From positions 1-34,779 of IMG/VR virus record IMGVR_UViG_3300042922_001477: a stretch of 34,779 bases of DNA; one strand, given 5' to 3'. The stretch's first letter is position 1. Each line of letters starts with the position of its first letter. This stretch comes from a virus. Under the pieces are notes generated by a model that did no database searches, had not been told where the DNA came from, and was given only the letters and a program-made list of their open reading frames with translations. A program made the translations under genes and the position numbers. Positions 1-18,884 of this stretch are shown piece after piece.

Positions 1-1254
1 ATGCCGAAAATCGCGATGACTGCCACCTGGGTCCACAAGATCAAGAGCGACAAGCTCCAAGAAGACTGGTACGACCTGGCTATGGACCGAGGGGTTAGCC
101 TGGTCCTTAGGGTATCACGATCGGGGTCGAAGATCTGGCAAGTGATCTATCGACCGAAGGGTGAGGCCGATCGCAAGCGATTCAAGATCGGCGAGTATCC
201 GGAAATGCCCCTGGCCGATGCCCGCGGGCGTGCTTACGCCATCCGTGATGACCTCAAGGCTGGCGGAGACCCCGCGGCGAAACGCGAAGCTGCCAAGGCT
301 GCGCCGACCTTCGGGGCCATCGCCAAGGAGTACATCGAGCGCTATGCCATGAAGCAAAAGCGATCGTGGGAACAAGACCAGCGGATGCTCGATAAGGACC
401 TGCTACCTGCCTGGGAGAACCGCAAAGCCCACGAGATTAAGCGGCGCGACGTGATTGCCCTTCTCGATGGGATTGCCGAGCGCGGTGCCCCTATCACGGC
501 TAACCGTACCTTGGCCCTCACCCGCAAGGTATTCAACTGGGCCATCAGTCGCGACCTACTCGAGAACAACCCATGCCTCCAGGTGAAGCCTGTGGCGTCC
601 GAGAACCAGCGGGATCGGGTGCTGACCGAGGATGAAATCCGGAAAGTCTGGGCGGCGTTCGGCGCAATTGCGTTCACCGAGGACGGGAAGGAATCGCCGC
701 TGGGGGCCATGATGGGGCAAATGTTCAAGCTTCGCCTCATCACCGCGCAACGCGGCGGCGAAGTTGAGTCGATGGCTTGGGCCGATGTCGACTTGGCCGG
801 CGGGTGGTGGACCATCCCTGCTGAGCGCGCGAAGAACGGCTTGAGCCACCGGGTGCCTCTGTCAGCCTCGGCGATCGCCATCCTCGAGCAGCTCAAGGCG
901 AAAGCCAAGAAGGGTAGCCCTTGGGTATTCACGAGCCCGAGGCTTGATCGTGACAATGAGGGGCACCAGGTCATCACGCACATATCGAACGTGAAGAAGG
1001 CCGTGGCCCGGGCCCACGAGGCCATTAAGAGGGCGAACGATGGCCAGGACGTGGATTTCGTGATGCACGACCTACGTCGGACGGCCGCGAGCTACATGGC
1101 CAGCATGGGGATTCAACGGCTTGTCATCTCGAAGATCCTGAACCACGTCGAGAGCGGGGTGACGGCCGTCTATGAGAGGCACTCATACGACACGGAGAAA
1201 CGGCAAGCGCTCGACGCCTGGGCGGCCCGTTTACGGACGATCGTTAAGGACTAG
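1..1254 (+). CDS. int: P4-type tyrosine recombinase (prophage integrase)
   Basis: Site-specific recombinase that would integrate and excise the prophage. The 417-aa length is normal for the P4 integrase group. Residues 1-95 look like the arm-binding DUF4102 domain, about 100-190 the SAM-like core-binding domain, and 200-405 the catalytic domain. The catalytic set is complete: R251 (in TAQRGGE), K278, H356 and R359 (in HDLRR), H382 (in NHVE) and nucleophile Y391 (in AVYERHSY). The gene starts at the first base of the window, so its ribosome binding site, promoter and the adjacent att site (often a tRNA gene for this family) cannot be seen. Its 3' end overlaps the convergent gene at 1244-1813 by 11 bp. 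Directory of function is by motif; the att target is unknown. Confidence 0.95.
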   Translation: MPKIAMTATWVHKIKSDKLQEDWYDLAMDRGVSLVLRVSRSGSKIWQVIYRPKGEADRKRFKIGEYPEMPLADARGRAYAIRDDLKAGGDPAAKREAAKAAPTFGAIAKEYIERYAMKQKRSWEQDQRMLDKDLLPAWENRKAHEIKRRDVIALLDGIAERGAPITANRTLALTRKVFNWAISRDLLENNPCLQVKPVASENQRDRVLTEDEIRKVWAAFGAIAFTEDGKESPLGAMMGQMFKLRLITAQRGGEVESMAWADVDLAGGWWTIPAERAKNGLSHRVPLSASAIAILEQLKAKAKKGSPWVFTSPRLDRDNEGHQVITHISNVKKAVARAHEAIKRANDGQDVDFVMHDLRRTAASYMASMGIQRLVISKILNHVESGVTAVYERHSYDTEKRQALDAWAARLRTIVKD

Positions 1255-1813
1255 GTTGTTCAGAATTATCCGTTTGCGTCTTTTTCTTCTCAAGGGCATC
1301 AATGGCTTTGTAATATCTTGCGCGTCGTTTGAGGAATCCAGTAATTGTCTTTGTAAGTTCTAGAGATGCAAATAGCGCAAAAAGAACTAAGAACATTGAT
1401 GGAAAATTAATTATGACTTTAGCCCAGATTGGCCAAGTCCAAATAAGTTTCGCCGAATAAATAACCACCAAAATCAAGGCTGTTACGACGGTCCAAATTG
1501 AAAGCTTGGCTGTGAATGAAAAGTTCCAAAGGTAGCCATCTAAGGCTTGTATCTCTTCAAGAAATATTAGAAATTTTGCTTCCATTAATGCGGTAAAGAT
1601 TGCGTATGATGCAATAATTACGCTAAATAGCCCGATTCCAATTGTGATGTAAATAGCAACCAAAATCCCGAGAACACTGACCTTTTGATCCGGGGGAATT
1701 GGCACAAATAGCAAGCAGGCGCTTAGTGCCAAAGCTAGCACCAGCGCCCACCAAAAATCAGCGCTTCCTAGTATTTCGTTTAGGTCGTCCTTCTTGAAGA
1801 AGACAATTTGCAT
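1244..1813 (-). CDS. Four-TM membrane protein, possibly RexB-like
   Basis: 189-aa protein with four hydrophobic segments at about residues 21-39, 47-77, 104-125 and 133-150 and a charged lysine-rich tail, so an inner-membrane protein with cytoplasmic ends is likely. I do not recognise the family. The gene is markedly AT-rich compared with its neighbours, a sign of recent transfer. It follows the 307-aa gene at 1867-2790 by 53 bp on the same strand, giving the order soluble protein then small multi-TM protein that lambda rexA-rexB also shows; the size and TM count resemble RexB, but no residue-level match can be claimed. The ATG start has no clear Shine-Dalgarno. It ends in TAA inside the last codons of the integrase gene. 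Confidence 0.72.
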   Translation of the reverse strand: MQIVFFKKDDLNEILGSADFWWALVLALALSACLLFVPIPPDQKVSVLGILVAIYITIGIGLFSVIIASYAIFTALMEAKFLIFLEEIQALDGYLWNFSFTAKLSIWTVVTALILVVIYSAKLIWTWPIWAKVIINFPSMFLVLFALFASLELTKTITGFLKRRARYYKAIDALEKKKTQTDNSEQPSP

Positions 1814-1866
1814 AGCACCAATATACCCAAGAATTGGCCGACCTACCGAACAATTGTTCGAATCAA

Positions 1867-2790
1867 CTAGGTTTCCTGTTGCCGGACTTCAGCGTCAGAC
1901 ACTACACCTTCTTCGTTAACGGCGTCCACCGCTTCCCGCAATTTTGCGTACACATCTTGAATGAAGGAAGGGGCGGACTCCAGCGCACGCTCGAAGTAGG
2001 TTTTCCGATAATTCTTTTTGGAGCTAAAGGTATCGGGTTTGCCATCTTTTTCGGCTGCAAGGTCAATATCCCCGTATCCCCCTGCAGCATGCGACAGTGC
2101 TTGGGTAAAGGGGTTGTCAACTTCGTTGGGGTCGATGTGAAGGCCGGCAGGACCCTTAATGTCGATATTTGCTGCTTCAGCTTCAAGCTGCTTTAGCGCA
2201 TTGTCGACCTTTTCATTTGCTCGTTTGGGATGAGGGTTAGAGGGAATGATCCGAAGCCGCATACTTGTGACGCGGTCTACCTTTTCAACGAAGGCGTATA
2301 CATCCTGCTCAGAAACGACCAAGTCAATTGCAATTGGGGCGTCCATGATGTCAGGAGACGGATTGTAGATCCCAGCAAGCGCTTTTCTGAAGTCTTCTTG
2401 GTATATCGGGCTGCGCTCTTCAAAGATGACAATATGAGATTCAAGATCTAGCGCGAAATTGACATACTTGTAAGTTACTGCTTCGGTCGTCTCGCCTAAA
2501 AGCAGTTTTCTTGACTTTCTGTCAATTTTTGCGCTACCGCTTTCCATTCTTTCTTTAACAAGTCTGCCAAAAATAAACTTCTTTTTAATATCGTGGTGGA
2601 AGTCTAAGACGAGCCAAGTGTACTTAATATCTCTTTGCGATTTATCTTTGAAAACAGGATACTCTTTACCTAGACGTAGAGCTTCGATCAAGAATGCGCT
2701 TTTACCTTCGTAGTCGTCTTCTCCTCCTTTCCAATCGATAAAATTAATACGACCGACAGCAAATTTAATAAGTCTACGTCTAACAGCCAA
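1867..2790 (-). CDS. 307-aa soluble protein of AT-rich lysogeny cassette (RexA-like position)
   Basis: Soluble mixed alpha/beta protein with no signal peptide or TM segment. The start is a TTG at 2790-2788 placed 9 nt after a good ribosome binding site (GGAG in TATAGGAGATT), so the unusual start codon is well supported. The N-terminal third is basic (RRRLIKFAVGR, KKKFIFGRLVK), suggesting nucleic-acid or phosphate binding. A later HIVIFEERSPIY segment and a GGYGDIDLAAEKDGK segment are loosely reminiscent of RexA or of DUF4747-type proteins, but I cannot assign a family by eye. It is the middle gene of an AT-rich minus-strand cassette, upstream of a 4-TM protein. Because it sits between integrase and repressor it is probably expressed in the lysogen, as superinfection-exclusion or abortive-infection cargo usually is. 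That role is inference. Confidence 0.72.
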   Translation of the reverse strand: MAVRRRLIKFAVGRINFIDWKGGEDDYEGKSAFLIEALRLGKEYPVFKDKSQRDIKYTWLVLDFHHDIKKKFIFGRLVKERMESGSAKIDRKSRKLLLGETTEAVTYKYVNFALDLESHIVIFEERSPIYQEDFRKALAGIYNPSPDIMDAPIAIDLVVSEQDVYAFVEKVDRVTSMRLRIIPSNPHPKRANEKVDNALKQLEAEAANIDIKGPAGLHIDPNEVDNPFTQALSHAAGGYGDIDLAAEKDGKPDTFSSKKNYRKTYFERALESAPSFIQDVYAKLREAVDAVNEEGVVSDAEVRQQET

Positions 2791-2829
2791 TTGAGTAATC
2801 TCCTATAGTTGGTGCCAATCTAACAAAAA

Positions 2830-3162
2830 TTAGGTTGATGCCTTCTGTCTGCTCTGGTCCTTTTGCTCGGCCAAAATTTGCTCAAGCAGGAACACAGTTC
2901 GCTGTTGCAGCTCGATTTGCTGCTGAGCCTGACGTATCGATTGCTCAATCAGAGCCCTGGAGGATGCTTGAGCCTGTGCCTGCTCTTCCCGAATGCCTTG
3001 AGCAAGCTTTGTGGCGTCCTTACGCTCACGCTCAGTTGGATTCCCGATGATGTGGGCTATTCCCTCGGCGATCTGCTTCTGTCCTTCATTCACTGAGACG
3101 AGAAACCAGGCGACCACGGCCAAGAGCCCGATGCTAATTGCAAAGAAAATTGGGTCGCTCAT
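2830..3162 (-). CDS. Membrane-anchored coiled-coil protein
   Basis: 110-aa protein with one N-terminal TM segment (about residues 5-24) followed by a long Q/E/A/R-rich coiled coil that ends in a hydrophilic tail, so it is probably anchored in the inner membrane with a cytoplasmic helix. The reading frame is open further upstream to a GTG at 3216, but the ATG at 3162 has AAGGA eight nt before it and starts exactly at the TM segment (MSDPIFFAIS), so I prefer it. It is the first gene of the minus-strand cassette that continues with the 307-aa and 4-TM proteins (39 bp to the next start). The family is not recognised; the shape resembles phage spanin-like or apolipoprotein-like membrane tethers, without evidence for either. 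Confidence 0.6.
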   Translation of the reverse strand: MSDPIFFAISIGLLAVVAWFLVSVNEGQKQIAEGIAHIIGNPTERERKDATKLAQGIREEQAQAQASSRALIEQSIRQAQQQIELQQRTVFLLEQILAEQKDQSRQKAST

Positions 3163-3387
3163 TTGGGCCATCCTTTCCTGCCTAGTATCAGACAGAAAAT
3201 CCGCCAGCCTGATCACGGGCTAGCGGACAAGAAGCAAGCAGGCGATCGGATTATAGCTCCGGGCCTCAAGAGATTGAAACCCTGGTGATTACTCGTTCTT
3301 GGTCCAGCTTTCGGTACTTTCGCAGGCTTGAAAAGTCGGTTATCTTGGACCAAAGAGCCCACGATCCTCTCAGGAAGCGGATAGCGG

Positions 3388-5686: not shown

Positions 5687-6166
5687 CTACTTGCTCTGTT
5701 CTCGTTTGCGGTGCTCTCTCATCAGCCCCTTGAGGTAGAAGAATTCTGACTCTCGCTCTTCAGGGGGAAGCTCCCAGAATCCCGGCTGGCTGAAGCCGCC
5801 ATACCAGCTACCAGTCCGGTCCAGCTCGTCGATGATCGCCCACTCTTCTTCCGTGGGTTCGTGCCGCTTCCGCAGCCCATCAATCACCTGGCGCATCTCT
5901 CCGGGTTCATGCGCGACAGAGGCCACCTGCTTAGGCTCCTCACCCCGGGCGATTCGAAGCAGGGTATCTACATCTACCTCTAGGCCCTTCGCAAGTTTTT
6001 CAAGCGTGTCGCCTCGAGGCGATTTTGTGACTTGGCCAACTTCAAGTGCTGCGATCGTCCCCCGAGGAACGCCAGAACGCTTGGCCAATTCCTCTTGGGT
6101 CAATCTCAGGTCATCGCGCCTCGCGATCAAATATTCGCGCAGCTTGTCGATTCCGGTCTTCTTCAT
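5687..6166 (-). CDS. CI-like XRE-family repressor
   Basis: 159-aa transcriptional repressor expected to hold the lysogenic state by binding the operators at 6167-6270. The N-terminal HTH_3/XRE domain is clear (residues 8-75; helix-turn-helix about 22-44, LTQEELAKRSG and VPRGTIAALEVG). The C-terminal half is acidic and hydrophilic and carries no S24 autoprotease motif, so RecA-stimulated self-cleavage is unlikely; control by the adjacent ImmA-like protein is the alternative. The stretch GVPRGTIAA.EVG is almost identical in the divergent Cro-like protein, which suggests both read the same operators. Start ATG at 6166 lies only about 17 nt from the most likely -10 element, so the mRNA may have a very short leader, as for lambda cI from PRM. 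Confidence 0.88.
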   Translation of the reverse strand: MKKTGIDKLREYLIARRDDLRLTQEELAKRSGVPRGTIAALEVGQVTKSPRGDTLEKLAKGLEVDVDTLLRIARGEEPKQVASVAHEPGEMRQVIDGLRKRHEPTEEEWAIIDELDRTGSWYGGFSQPGFWELPPEERESEFFYLKGLMREHRKREQSK

Positions 6167-6270
6167 GGTTGGAATCTTAACAATTTTGTTGGTTGATATG
6201 TCGACATAAGATGTTGACAGCTCAACAATTGAGCAGGTATTGTTGGTTTATCAACCGAAAGGGGCGCGTG
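6167..6270. promoter_or_regulatory. Divergent operator/promoter region between repressor and Cro
   Basis: A rightward promoter can be read: -35 TTGACA (6214-6219, perfect), 18-nt spacer, -10 TATTGT (6238-6243), then AAAGGGG and ATG at 6271. The spacer holds a palindrome, CTCAACAATTGAG (6221-6233). Two more symmetric elements lie to the left: TATGTCGACATA (6198-6209, perfect 12-bp palindrome) and AACAA-TT-TTGTT (6179-6190). The motif TTGTTGGTT occurs at 6186 and 6240. A 12-bp direct repeat TATCAACCGAAA lies at 6249-6260 and 6279-6290. For the repressor, a -10-like TAAGAT and a -35-like TCGACA inside the 12-bp palindrome can be read on the minus strand with a long 19-nt spacer. Binding assignments are inferred from symmetry only. 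Confidence 0.7.
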
Positions 6271-6516
6271 ATGAGCGTTATCAACCGAAAAATGATCCGC
6301 GAGTTACGCGTATCCTTGAGATATTCCCAACAAGAACTTGCAAATGCAACTGGAGTGCCGCGAGGAACGATCGCTGCAATTGAAGTTGGCACGTCGAAAC
6401 GCCCTAGTTTTCCTGTGGTAACTGCGATTGCAGGTGTGCTTCAGGTCCGCCCAGAATCCCTTTTTTTACCTGGTGATGTTGCAATTCCAACAAACAAGCC
6501 AACGTCAGCAAAGTAG
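6271..6516 (+). CDS. Cro-like XRE-family regulator
   Basis: 81-aa single-domain HTH_3/XRE protein, divergent from the repressor and first gene of the rightward early operon, hence a Cro analogue that would shut down repressor synthesis in lytic growth. The helix-turn-helix is YSQQELANATGVPRGTIAAIEVG (about residues 18-40 given here in part); its recognition segment GVPRGTIAAIEVG (28-40) differs from the CI-like protein by one conservative change. The frame is open further left to 6193, but ATG 6271 has AAAGGGG six nt upstream and starts the conserved domain, so I take it. The second copy of the 12-bp repeat TATCAACCGAAA lies inside the first codons. Seven bases separate its stop from the next start. 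Confidence 0.85.
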   Translation: MSVINRKMIRELRVSLRYSQQELANATGVPRGTIAAIEVGTSKRPSFPVVTAIAGVLQVRPESLFLPGDVAIPTNKPTSAK

Positions 6517-6523
6517 GTGCCCG

Positions 6524-6976
6524 ATGAACGCGACTAAAGAACGAATCCCCAGGTGCGCGATCTGCAATCGGTCGAACCTCGGGACGGTCAAGGTCTGCAC
6601 GACCTGCGCGCCTGTCCAGGCGGCATTCGATGCCCTTGTTACTCAAATCCGGCGTGCCGCGGATGAAGCGGAGCGCGCGATTCGGGAGGCGGCTGCCGAG
6701 AGGTTGGCCCGTCTGCAGCTCGAGCAACGGATTACCGAGTTGACCTCCCAGCCCGAGCCATCAGAGCGAATCCTGAGCCAGAAGGACGTGGAATCCCTCC
6801 TGGGGGTGACCCGCCAGACCATCCGCAACATGGAGCGCGCCGGCAGATTCCCGAAGCGGATCCGCCTGGGGGAAGGGCCTCAGAGCCGTATGGGGTGGAT
6901 CGAGTCCGAGGTGATGGACTGGCTCGAGGCGATCAAGCGTCAGAACCGCGGCTTTGTCGGCGGCGGCCAGGCCTAG
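6524..6976 (+). CDS. Zinc ribbon - coiled coil - AlpA-type DNA-binding protein
   Basis: 150-aa protein in three parts. Residues 11-28 form a zinc ribbon with two CXXC pairs (C11/C14 and C25/C28). Residues 33-80 are an Ala/Arg/Glu-rich coiled coil likely to dimerise. Residues 84-142 are an AlpA/MerR-like winged HTH: ILSQKDVESLLGVTRQTIRNMERAGRFPKRIRLG, then WIESEVMDWLEA, the standard AlpA ending (shown in pieces). AlpA proteins act as excisionases or activators of excision and early genes. Start ATG 6524 follows AGGTG; an upstream extension inside the Cro gene is rejected. The combination of an N-terminal ribbon with AlpA is uncommon in my knowledge of the family, which is normally about 65-80 aa. 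Confidence 0.78.
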   Translation: MNATKERIPRCAICNRSNLGTVKVCTTCAPVQAAFDALVTQIRRAADEAERAIREAAAERLARLQLEQRITELTSQPEPSERILSQKDVESLLGVTRQTIRNMERAGRFPKRIRLGEGPQSRMGWIESEVMDWLEAIKRQNRGFVGGGQA

Positions 6977-6990
6977 CAGAGGAGGAATCT

Positions 6991-7176
6991 ATGTCGGAGC
7001 TCACCCATTACCTAGCCAACGAGAACAACCAGCTGCACCGACGTGTTGAGCGTCTCGAGTTGGCGATCGCCATCGTGCTCGGGCGCCTGGGGGCGCGACC
7101 TTACGTCACTCTCGAATACTTGCCTGAGATGGTCGAGCGGGTCGAGCGTGAACTCCGCGAAGCTCTTGAGTCCTAG
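6991..7176 (+). CDS. Small coiled-coil protein
   Basis: 61-aa protein, start ATG 6991 with an excellent AGGAGG six nt upstream. It is nearly all helical, with a leucine-heptad pattern (HRRVERLELAIAIVLGRLG) followed by an acidic-basic helix (MVERVERELREALES). It probably oligomerises. No family is recognised. It is 14 bp from the AlpA-like gene and followed by about 400 bp without a gene that holds the structured RNA candidate. A HIP1 8-mer lies inside the gene at 7073. Confidence 0.65.
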   Translation: MSELTHYLANENNQLHRRVERLELAIAIVLGRLGARPYVTLEYLPEMVERVERELREALES

Positions 7177-7206
7177 CGAAAACGTCTAGCCCGGTAACCA
7201 GGCCGG

Positions 7207-7523
7207 CCTTGAAGCCTCGGGGCTTCTACTAGGCATGCCCGTAAGGGCACAAGAACACCCACGTGTGGGGAGCCGAAGGGCGGCTAATAGGGAAGGGGGC
7301 GTAGCTCCTGAAACCGAAGATCCTACGCGTCGAGCACTGAATGGGCCTCTCAGCTTGCTGTAGCTGGGACGTCCTGCCAGAGGTGGGACATACCGCAACT
7401 ACAGCAAACTGAGGGGGTTGAGCGCATCGCTGCCTCTGGTGACGGGCTCTTATCTTGCAGGACCAGGGCCCGTCCCCTCTTGGTTTTCCCCTTGCGGCTC
7501 CGTGGAGTCTCAAGCGGAGAACC
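7207..7523 (+). ncRNA. Candidate structured non-coding RNA, about 320 nt
   Basis: Non-coding stretch packed with consecutive helices, all read directly: GAAGCC-TCGG-GGCTTC (7211-7226); TGCCC-GTAA-GGGCA with a GNRA loop (7236-7249); CCCA-CGTG-TGGG (7258-7269); AGCCG-AAGGG-CGGCT (7271-7285); GCGTAG paired with CTACGC (7299-7304/7323-7328); a 15-bp helix with one mismatch, extendable to 18 bp (7346-7363/7399-7416), enclosing GTCCTGCC-AGA-GGTGGGAC (7371-7389); GACGGGC/GCCCGTC (7441-7447/7468-7474); and a 13-position helix with one mismatch (7482-7494/7511-7523). Strand is assumed from flanking genes. It matches no RNA class I recognise (not tmRNA, RNase P, SRP or 6S by signature motifs). It could be a long structured leader, a phage regulatory RNA or an orphan omega/HEARO-type RNA; no partner protein gene is adjacent. 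Confidence 0.5.
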
Positions 7524-7579
7524 AATGTAAACGTATTTATATCAACTTATGTAACAAATGTCAACCAATAGGAGGATCC

Positions 7580-7732
7580 ATGGCCAGACGAAAGGTAAAA
7601 CCCACGCGTGAGCCGTTCACCATTCTCGACGGCGCGCGCCGAGAAACATTTTTCGAGAGACACACGGCGGCCATCTTGGTCGCCTTTTTTATCGTCTGCT
7701 GCTTGCTCGCTACGTGGATTGAGGGCTTCTAG
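7580..7732 (+). CDS. Single-TM small membrane protein
   Basis: 50-aa protein: basic N-terminus (ARRKVKPTREP), then one TM segment at about residues 29-46 (AAILVAFFIVCCLLATW) near the C-terminus. Start ATG 7580 has AGGAGG four nt upstream. The topology is that of a tail-anchored or small inhibitor-type phage membrane protein; no family is recognised and a holin role would need more than one TM in most classes. An AT-rich segment just upstream (about 7524-7570, with TATTTATATCAAC) may hold the promoter for the following genes. It ends one base before the next start. Confidence 0.65.
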   Translation: MARRKVKPTREPFTILDGARRETFFERHTAAILVAFFIVCCLLATWIEGF

Positions 7733-9554: not shown

Positions 9555-10571
9555 ATGAAGAGAACATGGCACAAGGCCAGGAATCGGCAGCGAGACGCGG
9601 CCTACCAGTCGCTGACGGCATCCGCTCGAGGCGTCCTCCGGGACTTGGAGGAGATCCTAGACGAGGATCCCCAGCTGACTGGGAATGTGACGCATTTCGC
9701 CCGATGGACCGGCCTGGACCGCAAGACGGTACGGGAGGGGATCGAGGCGATCGCCCGTTTGGGGCTCCTACGGGTTGAAAAAGATGACCAGGGCAAGGCC
9801 GGGGTGTTTTACACCATCTCGGACCCTGATCGGGTGCCAGCCAAGCCCCAACCAACCCCTATGCATGGTCGAAGCATGACCCATCCAGGGTCGGAGGAAC
9901 CCTCAACCAACACCCAAGGATCACCTAAGCAGACCCCGACCATACCCCAAGCAACCCTCAACCATGTACCAACCATGTCCCAAGCAGATCCCAGCCACGG
10001 CCCACATAAATCCGGTGTTAATGCGGATTCCAGCGATTTCTCTCTTATAGAAATAGGAGAAAGAGAAGGAGAAAGAGAGGAGAACAGAGGAGAAGGAGAA
10101 GCGCGTGCGCGCGAGTTTGCTCCTGCTGCTGCGCATTTTCCGGACTTCCCCTCCGAGCTTGAGGAGTTCGAGGCGTGGTGGGCGGCGAAGAAGGGGCGCA
10201 ATCCCCCTCTGGGACCTGGCGAGATCGCCGATATGCGTGCGGCGATCGCCCTGCCCGGCATGTCGATCCCACGCATCAAGGCCTACGTCGACCGGATCCT
10301 GGCTGACAAGGCCTCCAAGGGGAAGCGGATCCCCGGCTCTTTCAGCTACTTCCTGCAGGGTCTGACGGATGAAGCCCAGCGCCAGGAGCTGCTAGCTGCG
10401 CCCGTCCAGATGATGCCAGGCACCTCCCCCGGCGGGGGTGTCACAGGTGTGCCTCGAAAGCCCAGGATTACCAGCCTGGGGCACTATCAGGCGATCGTGG
10501 AGGATGGCCTAGATCCCAACGACTTCGAGAATCCCGATGAATTCAAGCCCCGAGAGGAGGTGGCGGTTTGA
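9555..10571 (+). CDS. Lambda-O-like replication initiator
   Basis: 338-aa protein. Residues about 12-95 form a winged-helix domain (TASARGVLRDLEEIL, THFARWTGLDRKTVREGIEAI, LGLLRVEKD...GVFYTIS), the arrangement of phage replication initiators such as lambda O. Residues 95-155 are a Pro/Thr/Gln/Ser-rich linker whose DNA contains repeats, followed by an acidic-basic run (IGEREGEREENRGEGEARAR). Residues 200-290 are a helical domain (ELEEFEAWWAAKKGR, SIPRIKAYVDRILADKASKGKRIPGSFSYFLQ) of a type seen at the C-terminus of phage initiators and possibly recruiting a helicase or loader. Start ATG 9555 follows AAGGGGGTG. The gene probably contains the phage origin (separate entry). The downstream zinc protein overlaps by four bases and may be the helicase-loading partner. 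Confidence 0.72.
   Translation: MKRTWHKARNRQRDAAYQSLTASARGVLRDLEEILDEDPQLTGNVTHFARWTGLDRKTVREGIEAIARLGLLRVEKDDQGKAGVFYTISDPDRVPAKPQPTPMHGRSMTHPGSEEPSTNTQGSPKQTPTIPQATLNHVPTMSQADPSHGPHKSGVNADSSDFSLIEIGEREGEREENRGEGEARAREFAPAAAHFPDFPSELEEFEAWWAAKKGRNPPLGPGEIADMRAAIALPGMSIPRIKAYVDRILADKASKGKRIPGSFSYFLQGLTDEAQRQELLAAPVQMMPGTSPGGGVTGVPRKPRITSLGHYQAIVEDGLDPNDFENPDEFKPREEVAV
9841..10105 (+). other. Putative phage replication origin inside the initiator gene
   Basis: Three related units CCYAAGCA..CCC..CCA occur at 9924-9944 (CCTAAGCAGACCCCGACCATA shown as CCTAAGCAGA-CCCCGACCATA), 9946-9968 and 9979-10000, with weaker copies at 9841 and 9912; spacing is 22 and 33 bp, a multiple of about 11. They are followed by a strongly purine-asymmetric, A-rich stretch at about 10040-10100 (AAATAGGAGAAAGAGAAGG and similar). 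Iterons followed by an asymmetric A-rich unwinding element inside the initiator's linker is the design of lambda ori in gene O. The repeats also encode protein, so selection on peptide repeats is an alternative. Confidence 0.5.
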
Positions 10572-12492: not shown

Positions 12493-12495
12493 GCG

Positions 12496-12654
12496 GTGGT
12501 TGATGCGACGGCGATCGCCTGCCTGGCGGTAAACGATGGGGACCGTGAGGGGTTCCTGCTTCAGCTGCCTAGTCGCCCGGACTGGCAGAGGCTGCACGAC
12601 AGGATCGAGCAGTTGATAGGAGAGGAGGGCGAGGATTGCAGTACTTCTGGATGA
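12496..12654 (+). CDS. Hypothetical 52-aa early protein
   Basis: Short gene with a GTG start at 12496 and GGAGGT five nt upstream, three bases after the previous stop. The product (MVDATAIACLAVNDGD...) is small, acidic and soluble with one likely helix (DWQRLHDRIEQLIGEE). Tight packing and a good ribosome binding site support it, but it is too short for family assignment. Its 3' end overlaps the next small gene by 19 bp. Confidence 0.5.
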   Translation: MVDATAIACLAVNDGDREGFLLQLPSRPDWQRLHDRIEQLIGEEGEDCSTSG

Positions 12655-12779
12655 TGTTGGCCGCCTTCTGGGGGGTGCTATTCGTGCTGATGGCCATCCC
12701 GGTGGAAGACCCGGACAAACTGAAACACCGCAGGGCGCTCGAGGAATCCGGGCGCCCTGAGCATTTGGGGGAGGGTTAG
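12636..12779 (+). CDS. 47-aa single-TM protein
   Basis: TTG start at 12636 preceded by AGGAGG seven nt upstream; the product begins MQYFWMMLAAFWGVLFVLMA, a single hydrophobic helix at the N-terminus, followed by a charged cytoplasmic tail. An ATG at 12651 (ATGATG) is the alternative start but would cut the TM segment. It overlaps the end of the preceding small gene and ends three bases before the methyltransferase gene. A membrane peptide of unknown role. Confidence 0.5.
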   Translation: MQYFWMMLAAFWGVLFVLMAIPVEDPDKLKHRRALEESGRPEHLGEG

Positions 12780-12782
12780 ACG

Positions 12783-13262
12783 ATGGCCAGAGGATTTGCC
12801 TGCGTGGCGCTGGACCAGCCAAAGGACCCGGCGAACATCGGCGGGGTGATTCGGGCGGCGAAGGCCTACGGGGCCGCCCTGGTGGTGGTGAGCGGCAACC
12901 GCTTCGAAAAGCGAGCCAAGACCGACACGACCAAGGGGTTTCGCCACATCCCAATCATTCGGGGGGATGACGTCCTGGCCTCACTCCCGGTGGACTGCGT
13001 GCCGGTGGCGGTCGACCTGCTGCCAGGCGCGACCCCGCTGCCGGAATACGAGCATCCGGAGCGGGCCTTCTACATCTTCGGCGGTGAGGATCGGACCCTT
13101 GGCCCGGAGGTGGTCGACCGTTGCCGGGATCGGGTCTTCGTCCCCACCACCAACTGCATGAACCTCGCCGCGGCCGTCAATGTGGTCCTCTACGACCGGA
13201 TGGCTAAGGCCGGGGCACGGAAAGGAGCGAGGCATGAGCCGACGGAAGCCGACCAAGATTGA
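12783..13262 (+). CDS. SpoU/TrmH-family RNA 2'-O-methyltransferase
   Basis: 159-aa SPOUT-fold methyltransferase, about the size of TrmL and lacking any extra RNA-binding domain. Motif 1 is NIGGVIRAAKAYGAALVVV with the conserved N18 and catalytic-type R24; motif 2 is FYIFGGEDRTLGPEV (residues 96-110); motif 3 is VPTTNCMNLAAAVNVVLYD (120-138) with N127. These build the deep trefoil knot that binds S-adenosylmethionine. Motif 3 normally reads SLNVS..., here CMNLA, a modest departure. The likely substrate is the ribose of a tRNA or rRNA nucleotide. Start ATG 12783 follows GGAGGG seven nt upstream. An RNA methylase in an early phage operon suggests adjustment of host or phage RNA. Confidence 0.87.
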   Translation: MARGFACVALDQPKDPANIGGVIRAAKAYGAALVVVSGNRFEKRAKTDTTKGFRHIPIIRGDDVLASLPVDCVPVAVDLLPGATPLPEYEHPERAFYIFGGEDRTLGPEVVDRCRDRVFVPTTNCMNLAAAVNVVLYDRMAKAGARKGARHEPTEADQD

Positions 13263-14067: not shown

Positions 14068-14654
14068 GCGACGAGCGTATTTTCAAGACCGCCCTTGGCA
14101 TCCAAACCGGCGACCTGGTCAAGACGAGCTACGGCACCGGGCCCTTCGAGGTCTGGGATATCAGCGAGCCCTACAACCGGATCGACCGCTTGGACAACAC
14201 CCTCGCCGTGTTCGCCTATCCGATGGTCAGCCTAGTACTCGTCTACCCCGGCGACATCGGGCATGCCGGCTACATCAACAACGTGCGCCAGGTCGCCGAC
14301 GGCTGGGCGACTCCCGACGGCGATCGCATCTTCGTGGAACGGCCGGCGGCCGCTTCGGCTCTCCAGTTGGGGCTCTTTCAGAGTCACCTGCCTGTCCCGG
14401 CCCCTTATCAGACCCGGGTGGGCGTCGACTACGAGGCCGGACAGCGCAAGGTCTGGCACTGCAATTTCTGCGGTTTGGACTTCAATGCCGCTCCGACCGC
14501 CCGCCACTACCCTCCTGATTGCCCGTTCGGATGCTGGCAGGCTCCGCAGCCGATCGAACTTGTCGGTGAGGATGACTGGTGGTGTTGGGCGACCGGCAAG
14601 GAGAGCGTCGTCATCGATGGGAAGCGGTACGCAAAGATCGGCGGTGCGATATGA
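14064..14654 (+). CDS. Phage protein with zinc site and clamp-binding-like QLGLF
   Basis: 196-aa protein. The N-terminal half has beta-type segments (LGIQTGDLVKTSYGTGPFEVWDI) suggesting a small barrel. Residues 101-105 read QLGLF, close to the canonical beta-sliding-clamp binding pentapeptide. The C-terminal part has WHCNFCGLDF with C133/C136 and CPFGC with C153/C157, a plausible zinc site, then W-rich segments. The family is common in early operons of phages but unnamed to me. ATG overlaps the preceding stop (ATGA), with GGAGGTGGGGG upstream, so it is coupled to the multi-HTH gene. Confidence 0.65.
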   Translation: MSDERIFKTALGIQTGDLVKTSYGTGPFEVWDISEPYNRIDRLDNTLAVFAYPMVSLVLVYPGDIGHAGYINNVRQVADGWATPDGDRIFVERPAAASALQLGLFQSHLPVPAPYQTRVGVDYEAGQRKVWHCNFCGLDFNAAPTARHYPPDCPFGCWQAPQPIELVGEDDWWCWATGKESVVIDGKRYAKIGGAI

Positions 14655-15184
14655 GTCACGCCAACCGCGGCAAGGCCTTCGAGGCGGCGATCGAGGCTCA
14701 AATTGCCTTCTATCGCCTCGACGGGCTAGCCTCCATCGACAAGAACAACCCGGAATGGGTGCTGATCGGCTACGACCCCGCGACTAACACCTGCGACAAG
14801 TGCTTTCCGAAGCGCAGAGGCGGCGTCGATTACGACGGGGCGATCGCCTACCTAGGGCGCGCATGGCCGCTTTACTTCGATGCCAAGGAAACCCACCTCA
14901 AGACCCGCTTTCCCCTAGACAACATTGACCCGGAGCAACTGGAGTTCCTGCGCGAGAAGTCGCGTTACGGGGCGATCGCCTTCCTGTTGGTTCACCTGGC
15001 CCCCCTCGAGCGCGTGTTTCTGGTCGACGTGGAGCAAGTTGACCGGGCCCGCGCCGCCGGCCGGTCATCGCTCAGCCTGGCTGACCTGGAGGCCGGGATT
15101 GAGGTCCGAATGCGGGCCTGGCGCCCTGATTTCCTGCCGCCCATTCTATCCCTACTGGAGAAACACCATGGCCAAAATGCTTAA
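14651..15184 (+). CDS. recU: RecU-like Holliday junction resolvase
   Basis: 177-aa endonuclease of the RecU type, which resolves recombination junctions during phage replication. Matching features are the N-terminal RGKAFEAAIE (E11), GGVDYDGA with D60 (the S/T..DY.G motif), YFDAKET with D77 and K79 (the D/E.AK nuclease motif), then RFPLDNIDPEQLEFLRE and AIAFLLV, all in the order of Bacillus RecU. An insertion with C48/C51 (CDKC) before the DY motif is unusual and might bind zinc. Start ATG 14651 overlaps the preceding stop by four bases. The gene overlaps the methylase gene by 17 bp. It is normally a Firmicutes and phage enzyme, so here it marks phage origin. Confidence 0.85.
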   Translation: MSHANRGKAFEAAIEAQIAFYRLDGLASIDKNNPEWVLIGYDPATNTCDKCFPKRRGGVDYDGAIAYLGRAWPLYFDAKETHLKTRFPLDNIDPEQLEFLREKSRYGAIAFLLVHLAPLERVFLVDVEQVDRARAAGRSSLSLADLEAGIEVRMRAWRPDFLPPILSLLEKHHGQNA

Positions 15185-18408: not shown

Positions 18409-18466
18409 TTGGCGAACGTGTGCCGCTGATGAAGCGGTGTTATTCATGGCCCCCCATCCGTTAGTA

Positions 18467-18513
18467 GGTCCCGCCTCTGTGGGATCGCTCGAACGCGGAG
18501 CGGGGGCCTTTTT
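18467..18513 (+). terminator. Rho-independent terminator ending the early operon
   Basis: GGTCCCGCCTC (18467-18477) pairs with GGAGCGGGGGCC (18497-18508) apart from single-base bulges, followed at once by TTTTT (18509-18513). It lies 58 bp after the regulator gene. An inner CGCTC/GAGCG stem is an alternative fold. Confidence 0.72.
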
Positions 18514-18590
18514 GCTCCAGGCGACTCCCAAGGTGGGAGCCCCGCGAAGACAGTAGCGGGTGGTGGAGGGTTCGATTCCCTTCCTGGAGC
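18514..18590 (+). other. tRNA-like element 1 (non-canonical)
   Basis: About 76 nt with a perfect acceptor stem CTCCAGG / CCTGGAG (18515-18521 and 18583-18589), extendable by G18514-C18590. There is a D-arm-like hairpin CTCCC-AAGGT-GGGAG, an anticodon-arm-like hairpin CCCGC/GCGGG with a 10-nt loop (18546-18555), and a good T-arm with loop TTCGATT closed by a 5-bp stem (one GT pair). The missing U at position 8, the short D loop and the 10-nt anticodon loop rule out a normal decoding tRNA. It starts directly after the terminator T-run. Confidence 0.5.
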
Positions 18591-18634
18591 CTCAAGTTGA
18601 AAGCGCTCCCGGCGAGCTACCGACGTGCGGGGCG

Positions 18635-18706
18635 TGGGGGGACCAAGGGCTCACAAGGCGAGCTGAGCGGGTGTAACCGCAAGGAGTTCGATCCTCTGCC
18701 CCCCAA
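18635..18706 (+). other. tRNA-like element 2 (non-canonical)
   Basis: About 72 nt with a perfect 7-bp acceptor stem TGGGGGG / CCCCCCA (18635-18641 and 18699-18705), a D-arm-like GCTC-ACAAGGC-GAGC hairpin that keeps the A14 and GG of real D loops, GCGG-GTGTAA-CCGC with a 6-nt loop, and a T-arm with loop TTCGATC (4 of 5 stem pairs). Seven rather than two bases separate acceptor and D stems and the variable loop is nearly absent, so it is a relic or a mimic, not a standard tRNA. Confidence 0.45.
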
Positions 18707-18884
18707 GATTTCAGGAGGCTGCCTGCTGGGTGCCCCCTACCCCTCCGCTCGATGGGTAGGCCCCCCATAGGTTCCCCTAATGAAGAATTCACGCGGGGAG
18801 GAAAAACCGCGGGCTTTGGCTAGTCACCGGGCCGCTGGGTTGGGTTGGTCTCTTGGGGGTGAATGAGCACCCTGGAGGTTTCCG

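Follow-up and report, generated by a model that had tools for sequence, protein, structure and literature searches.

A cluster of strong hairpins in the early control region of a temperate phage, a candidate 5' part of a leftward regulatory RNA

Does the non-coding segment in a temperate phage's early control region encode a structured RNA, and if so, on which strand and to what end? The question is raised by virus record IMGVR_UViG_3300042922_001477, the whole of which (34,779 nucleotides; hereafter the window) reads as a temperate tailed phage. The best relatives of its large terminase are about 52% identical, and the relatives of the terminase and the integrase come mostly from Pseudomonadota. 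The phage itself yielded no close relative: searches anchored on the AlpA, integrase and CI proteins gave no relatives, and those anchored on a phrog_874-like gene and TerL led to distant phages only, whose early regions went unrecognised. The gene order of this region runs from a CI-like repressor on the minus strand, through a Cro-like repressor and an AlpA/excisionase-like regulator on the plus strand, to the segment and then to an O-like replication gene on the plus strand (Table 1). An earlier note, made from the letters of the sequence, had singled out the segment as a candidate new RNA and described it as non-coding. The latter view is borne out: the gap between the flanking genes (7177-7579) holds no convincing gene, and none of its ORFs matches Pfam or PHROG above the cut-off, the best match in or near the gap (Pfam GFA, 7418-7732, E 4e-4) falling below it. 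The surrounding operon, in contrast to the same description, is not otherwise gapless, as there are further gaps of 290 nucleotides (12493-12782) and 476 nucleotides (18409-18884), both of them free of excess structure.

Folding of 7177-7550 yielded -164.5 kcal/mol on the plus strand (z -4.8) and -157.9 kcal/mol on the minus strand (z -5.3), with none of 100 shuffles as good in either case. The segment takes third rank for folding among 102 tiles of the window, several others of which also reach |z| >= 3.6; its structure is strong rather than unique. Elsewhere in the control region, a plus-strand tile with the cro promoter and gene (6171-6510) has z -4.9 against 16 shuffles, which is not seen on its minus strand. 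Within the segment, the domains 7331-7435 (z -4.2 on plus, -6.1 on minus) and 7436-7527 (z -5.3 on plus, -3.8 on minus) are significant on both strands; the left third, 7209-7335 (z -1.2 on plus, -0.4 on minus), is no stabler than shuffles. The excess structure consists of three strong hairpins within about 180 nucleotides: a long imperfect hairpin and a pair of adjacent ones to its right (7346-7416, 7438-7477 and 7480-7525). Thus, of the eight or more helices that had been proposed, the long helix with its nested hairpin and the terminal helix correspond to the first and last of these three, but a single architecture of at least eight helices is not supported, with 7209-7335 at shuffle level. 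Of the two tetraloops named alongside them, GTAA fits the GNRA pattern, whereas TCGG is not a UNCG tetraloop. The hairpin cluster is nonetheless a real feature of this temperate-phage control region.

Table 1. Coordinates of the hairpins, signals and flanking genes in the window
Feature	Coordinates	Strand	Remarks
Integrase	1-1254		Start of the window
CI-like repressor	5687-6166	minus	A leftward transcript would run towards it
Cro-like repressor	6256-6516	plus	Downstream of promoter match 6214-6243
AlpA/excisionase-like regulator	6524-6976	plus	
61-aa ORF	6991-7176	plus	Ends just 5' of the segment; no family match
Small hairpins of the left third	7211-7226; 7236-7249		TCGG loop; GTAA loop; both within 7209-7335
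Long imperfect hairpin	7346-7416		21-nt arms, 86% complementary; nested 8-bp hairpin
Hairpin	7438-7477		10-bp lower stem on plus (12 counting closing GG/CC)
Hairpin TTGGTT..AACCAA	7480-7525		2 nt from hairpin 7438-7477
Sigma-70 promoter match TTGACA-N17-TATAAA	7564-7536	minus	Best match of the window; points into the segment
Half-site TCAACCAA	7561-7568	plus	Overlaps the -35 of the minus-strand promoter
50-aa ORF	7580-7732	plus	Ribosome site AGGAGG; probable membrane helix; no family match
Intrinsic-terminator match	7666-7684	plus	8 pairs and TTTTTT tail; 0.05 expected
Replication-initiation O-like gene	at 9555	plus	

The cues to the strand that lie within the structure point both ways. The long helix favours the minus strand, on which it is nearly continuous, with G-U pairs where the plus strand has A-C mismatches; by their z scores the two right-hand hairpins favour the plus strand, on which the bases that are unpaired on both strands are also A/G-rich. 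Beside the helices that are common to the predictions for both strands there are 8 G-U pairs on plus and 6 on minus, counts that do not discriminate between the two. The most telling cue comes from outside the structure, in the form of the minus-strand promoter match. This is the only 11-of-12 match in the window; of 400 shuffles of the whole window, 11 contained an equally good one, and when the local AT-rich stretch itself was shuffled, 0.4% of shuffles had one on that strand. The start expected from this match, at about 7528, falls about 3 nucleotides outside the outermost pair (7525) of the rightmost hairpin. The AT-rich promoter-like stretch reported earlier thus exists, but the promoter match in it is on minus and faces leftward, into the segment, and the window's strongest promoter match points the opposite way from the plus-strand RNA that had been assumed; both this promoter and the plus-strand terminator had been overlooked. 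The pattern of the half-site that overlaps its -35 (TCAACCRA) has three copies around the cI/cro control region and occurs 7 times in the window versus 1.9 expected; the overlap is no more than suggestive. No match to an intrinsic terminator was found on the minus strand between 6000 and 8000.

The most likely reading of the segment is a phage regulatory RNA of some kind. In the form that we favour, with a probability of roughly 0.4, the hairpins would be the 5' part of a leftward (minus-strand) RNA that is antisense to the xis/AlpA-cro operon and arises at the place of lambda OOP/pRE. We favour it because the rare promoter match directly adjoins the structure and is oriented towards it, because the z score of the long helix is the stronger on minus (-6.1 vs -4.2 on plus), and because a half-site of the cI/cro pattern overlaps the -35; the order of the flanking genes gives the correspondence to the OOP/pRE place, and the lack of a minus-strand terminator match is compatible with leftward read-on. 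The predicted transcript would start at about 7528 and fold at once, with the two right-hand hairpins followed by the long one; if it continues, it would pass in antisense through the 61-aa, xis/AlpA and cro genes and head towards the CI repressor gene. It might then act as the lambda OOP and pRE transcripts do, through antisense pairing against the early operon, delivery of repressor message, or both. The 5' hairpins may protect this RNA, the nearly continuous long helix could be an RNase III site, and CI or Cro might tune the promoter via the half-site over its -35.

On the lambda map, oop/pRE are positioned as the segment is here, OOP being an RNA of 77 nucleotides that has a terminator of its own, and pRE a promoter that needs CII. 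As in lambda, the window has a leftward promoter match between the early regulator and replication genes (right of the cro-side regulators and left of the replication gene), which is directed into the early operon in antisense and on towards cI. Unlike OOP/pRE, the segment has a consensus promoter, about 180 nucleotides of strong hairpins and no terminator match, and we claim no sequence kinship. Several observations tell against the leftward RNA: no terminator or other 3' end of a discrete minus-strand RNA is seen; the right-hand hairpins are better on plus (z -5.3 vs -3.8), where the unpaired bases are A/G-rich; a strong plus-strand terminator 140 nucleotides on points to control on that strand; no homologue was found; and the promoter is a consensus match, which does not show use, least of all outside a known host. 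It is quite unlikely that the segment represents an undescribed class of phage RNA, that is, a structured RNA of about 350 nucleotides without an Rfam member, which would have its own consensus promoter, run against the early operon and decide lysis or lysogeny by antisense or RNA polymerase action.

The main rival, a plus-strand explanation that is possible if on the unlikely side, is that the hairpins belong to a cis-acting leader of the early operon that works by antitermination or attenuation. RNA polymerase from the cro promoter would transcribe them, and either the adjacent pair (7438-7525) would modify the polymerase or the leader would refold, resulting in read-through or a stop at the terminator ahead of the replication genes, as with HK022 put or lambda nut/tR1. 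In its favour is the terminator, the only strong intrinsic one in the window, 140 nucleotides downstream on the same strand; with it, the riboswitch-like leader of the earlier note is strengthened and lives on as a rival. The preference of the right-hand hairpins for the plus strand, the GNRA loop and the A/G-rich unpaired bases likewise speak for it. However, the terminator sits inside the 50-aa ORF and its T run codes for Phe-Phe there, the minus-strand promoter is left unexplained, and homologues are wanting here too. In the put-type antitermination of HK022, an early promoter is followed by two adjacent stem-loops and a terminator, the put RNAs being about 70 nucleotides long, with two stems, and sited behind early promoters (PMC9378689). 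The segment has a similar layout, with two adjacent stem-loops in the early operon (88 nucleotides with a 2-nt linker on plus, within about 70-90 nucleotides) that lie behind the early promoter match 6214-6243 and ahead of the terminator match, both of these being consensus matches. It differs from HK022 put in its much stronger stems, the extra long hairpin upstream and the distance to the promoter (1.2 kb vs 0-270 nucleotides); moreover, alignment of the segment with candidate HK022 putL and putR, located by their mutual similarity, gave scores equal to those of shuffled sequence. The segment may work like put, without being established as put. It also resembles lambda nutR-tR1 as a structured RNA element between an early promoter and an early terminator, but no N-like protein was identified; a boxA-like GCTCTTA in hairpin 7438-7477 and the GNRA hairpin 7236-7249 are short enough to have arisen by chance and stand in the wrong order relative to lambda nutR.

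Strand symmetry of the kind seen in the segment is expected of inverted repeats that are not selected on one RNA strand. The hairpins might be a passive feature at the DNA level, such as what is left of a small mobile element, or a site for a protein or for recombination, with symmetric folding merely reflecting the palindromes. The similar excess stability of the two strands, wobble changes that go both ways (8 vs 6) and the lack of relatives are consistent with this; nevertheless, we consider it unlikely, as searches of phages, plasmids, viral records and sampled genomes turned up no further copy, neither repeat structure nor a transposase is present, and three distinct hairpins, accompanied by matches to a promoter and a terminator, exceed a simple palindrome. 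An orphan omega/HEARO-type guide RNA working with a nuclease from elsewhere, as the earlier note had also suggested, is unsupported and highly improbable. The segment is like the HEARO/IscB omega RNA (RF02033) in size (about 320 nucleotides) and in its many hairpins, but the Infernal scan of Rfam that had been proposed returned no family, HEARO included, even when filters were permissive and E values up to 10 were allowed, and Pfam and PHROG scans detected no IscB/IsrB or other RNA-guided nuclease among most early-region and several left-end proteins, a set that excludes the structural genes and several of the small ORFs in the early region.

With blastn the segment drew only short chance hits in phages, plasmids and 39 viral records, as well as in 385 + 317 alphaproteobacterial and 369 gammaproteobacterial genomes; a 24-mer from it found nothing in the genome collection. 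This absence of relatives is weak evidence, because the scans of viral contigs used exact words only, metagenome contigs fell outside the searches, the host is not identified, and the genome search was a loose first look that scored few candidates per genome across about 1,070 proteobacterial genomes of two classes. Other probes led to candidates that were rejected. The viral-contig pattern GCCCGTAAGGGCACAAGAA and a gapped loop pattern had only chance hits in unrelated phages, and the 64 stretches matching a pattern for the stem of the long hairpin were unrelated. Covariance models built on the segment's sequence alone, for its left (R1) and right (R2) domains, gave chance hits only, the best being a hairpin behind an ftsZ-like gene. 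A resemblance to 23S rRNA (GGGGAGCCGAAGGG, CCTGAAACCG) was no better than that of other tiles of the window. The segment is at present an orphan element without comparative support. Should the leftward RNA prove true, this phage, of a lineage without a studied relative, would have a control RNA of the early region that exceeds lambda OOP in size; should the plus-strand leader be correct instead, put-like antiterminators would have one more example outside the lambdoids.

The window has further features of note. Behind the integrase, three minus-strand ORFs (1244-3216), two of them membrane-like, have no PADLOC match and, for the one ORF tested, no Pfam match; they are possibly a lysogenic-conversion or exclusion module. 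The early region encodes a SpoU-type RNA 2'-O-methyltransferase on the plus strand (12783-13262; Pfam PF00588, E 9e-20), an unusual phage cargo, and 14651-15184, also on plus, encodes a RecU-type Holliday-junction resolvase (PF03838, E 6e-23). Ahead of the terminase genes, a single gap contains two plus-strand tRNA-like sequences. The first (18514-18590) has an acceptor stem of 8-9 bp, a 6-bp D stem, a perfect T arm (GGTTCGATTCC) and a 10-nt anticodon loop; it was missed by ARAGORN and scores 29.9 bits with the Rfam tRNA-Sec model, below the cut-off of 47 (E 6e-4). The second, weaker one (18635-18705) combines a GGGGGG..CCCCCC acceptor with a AGTTCGATCCT T-loop, and its stability against shuffles is not significant. 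The two are possibly tRNAs of the phage that are degenerate or non-standard.
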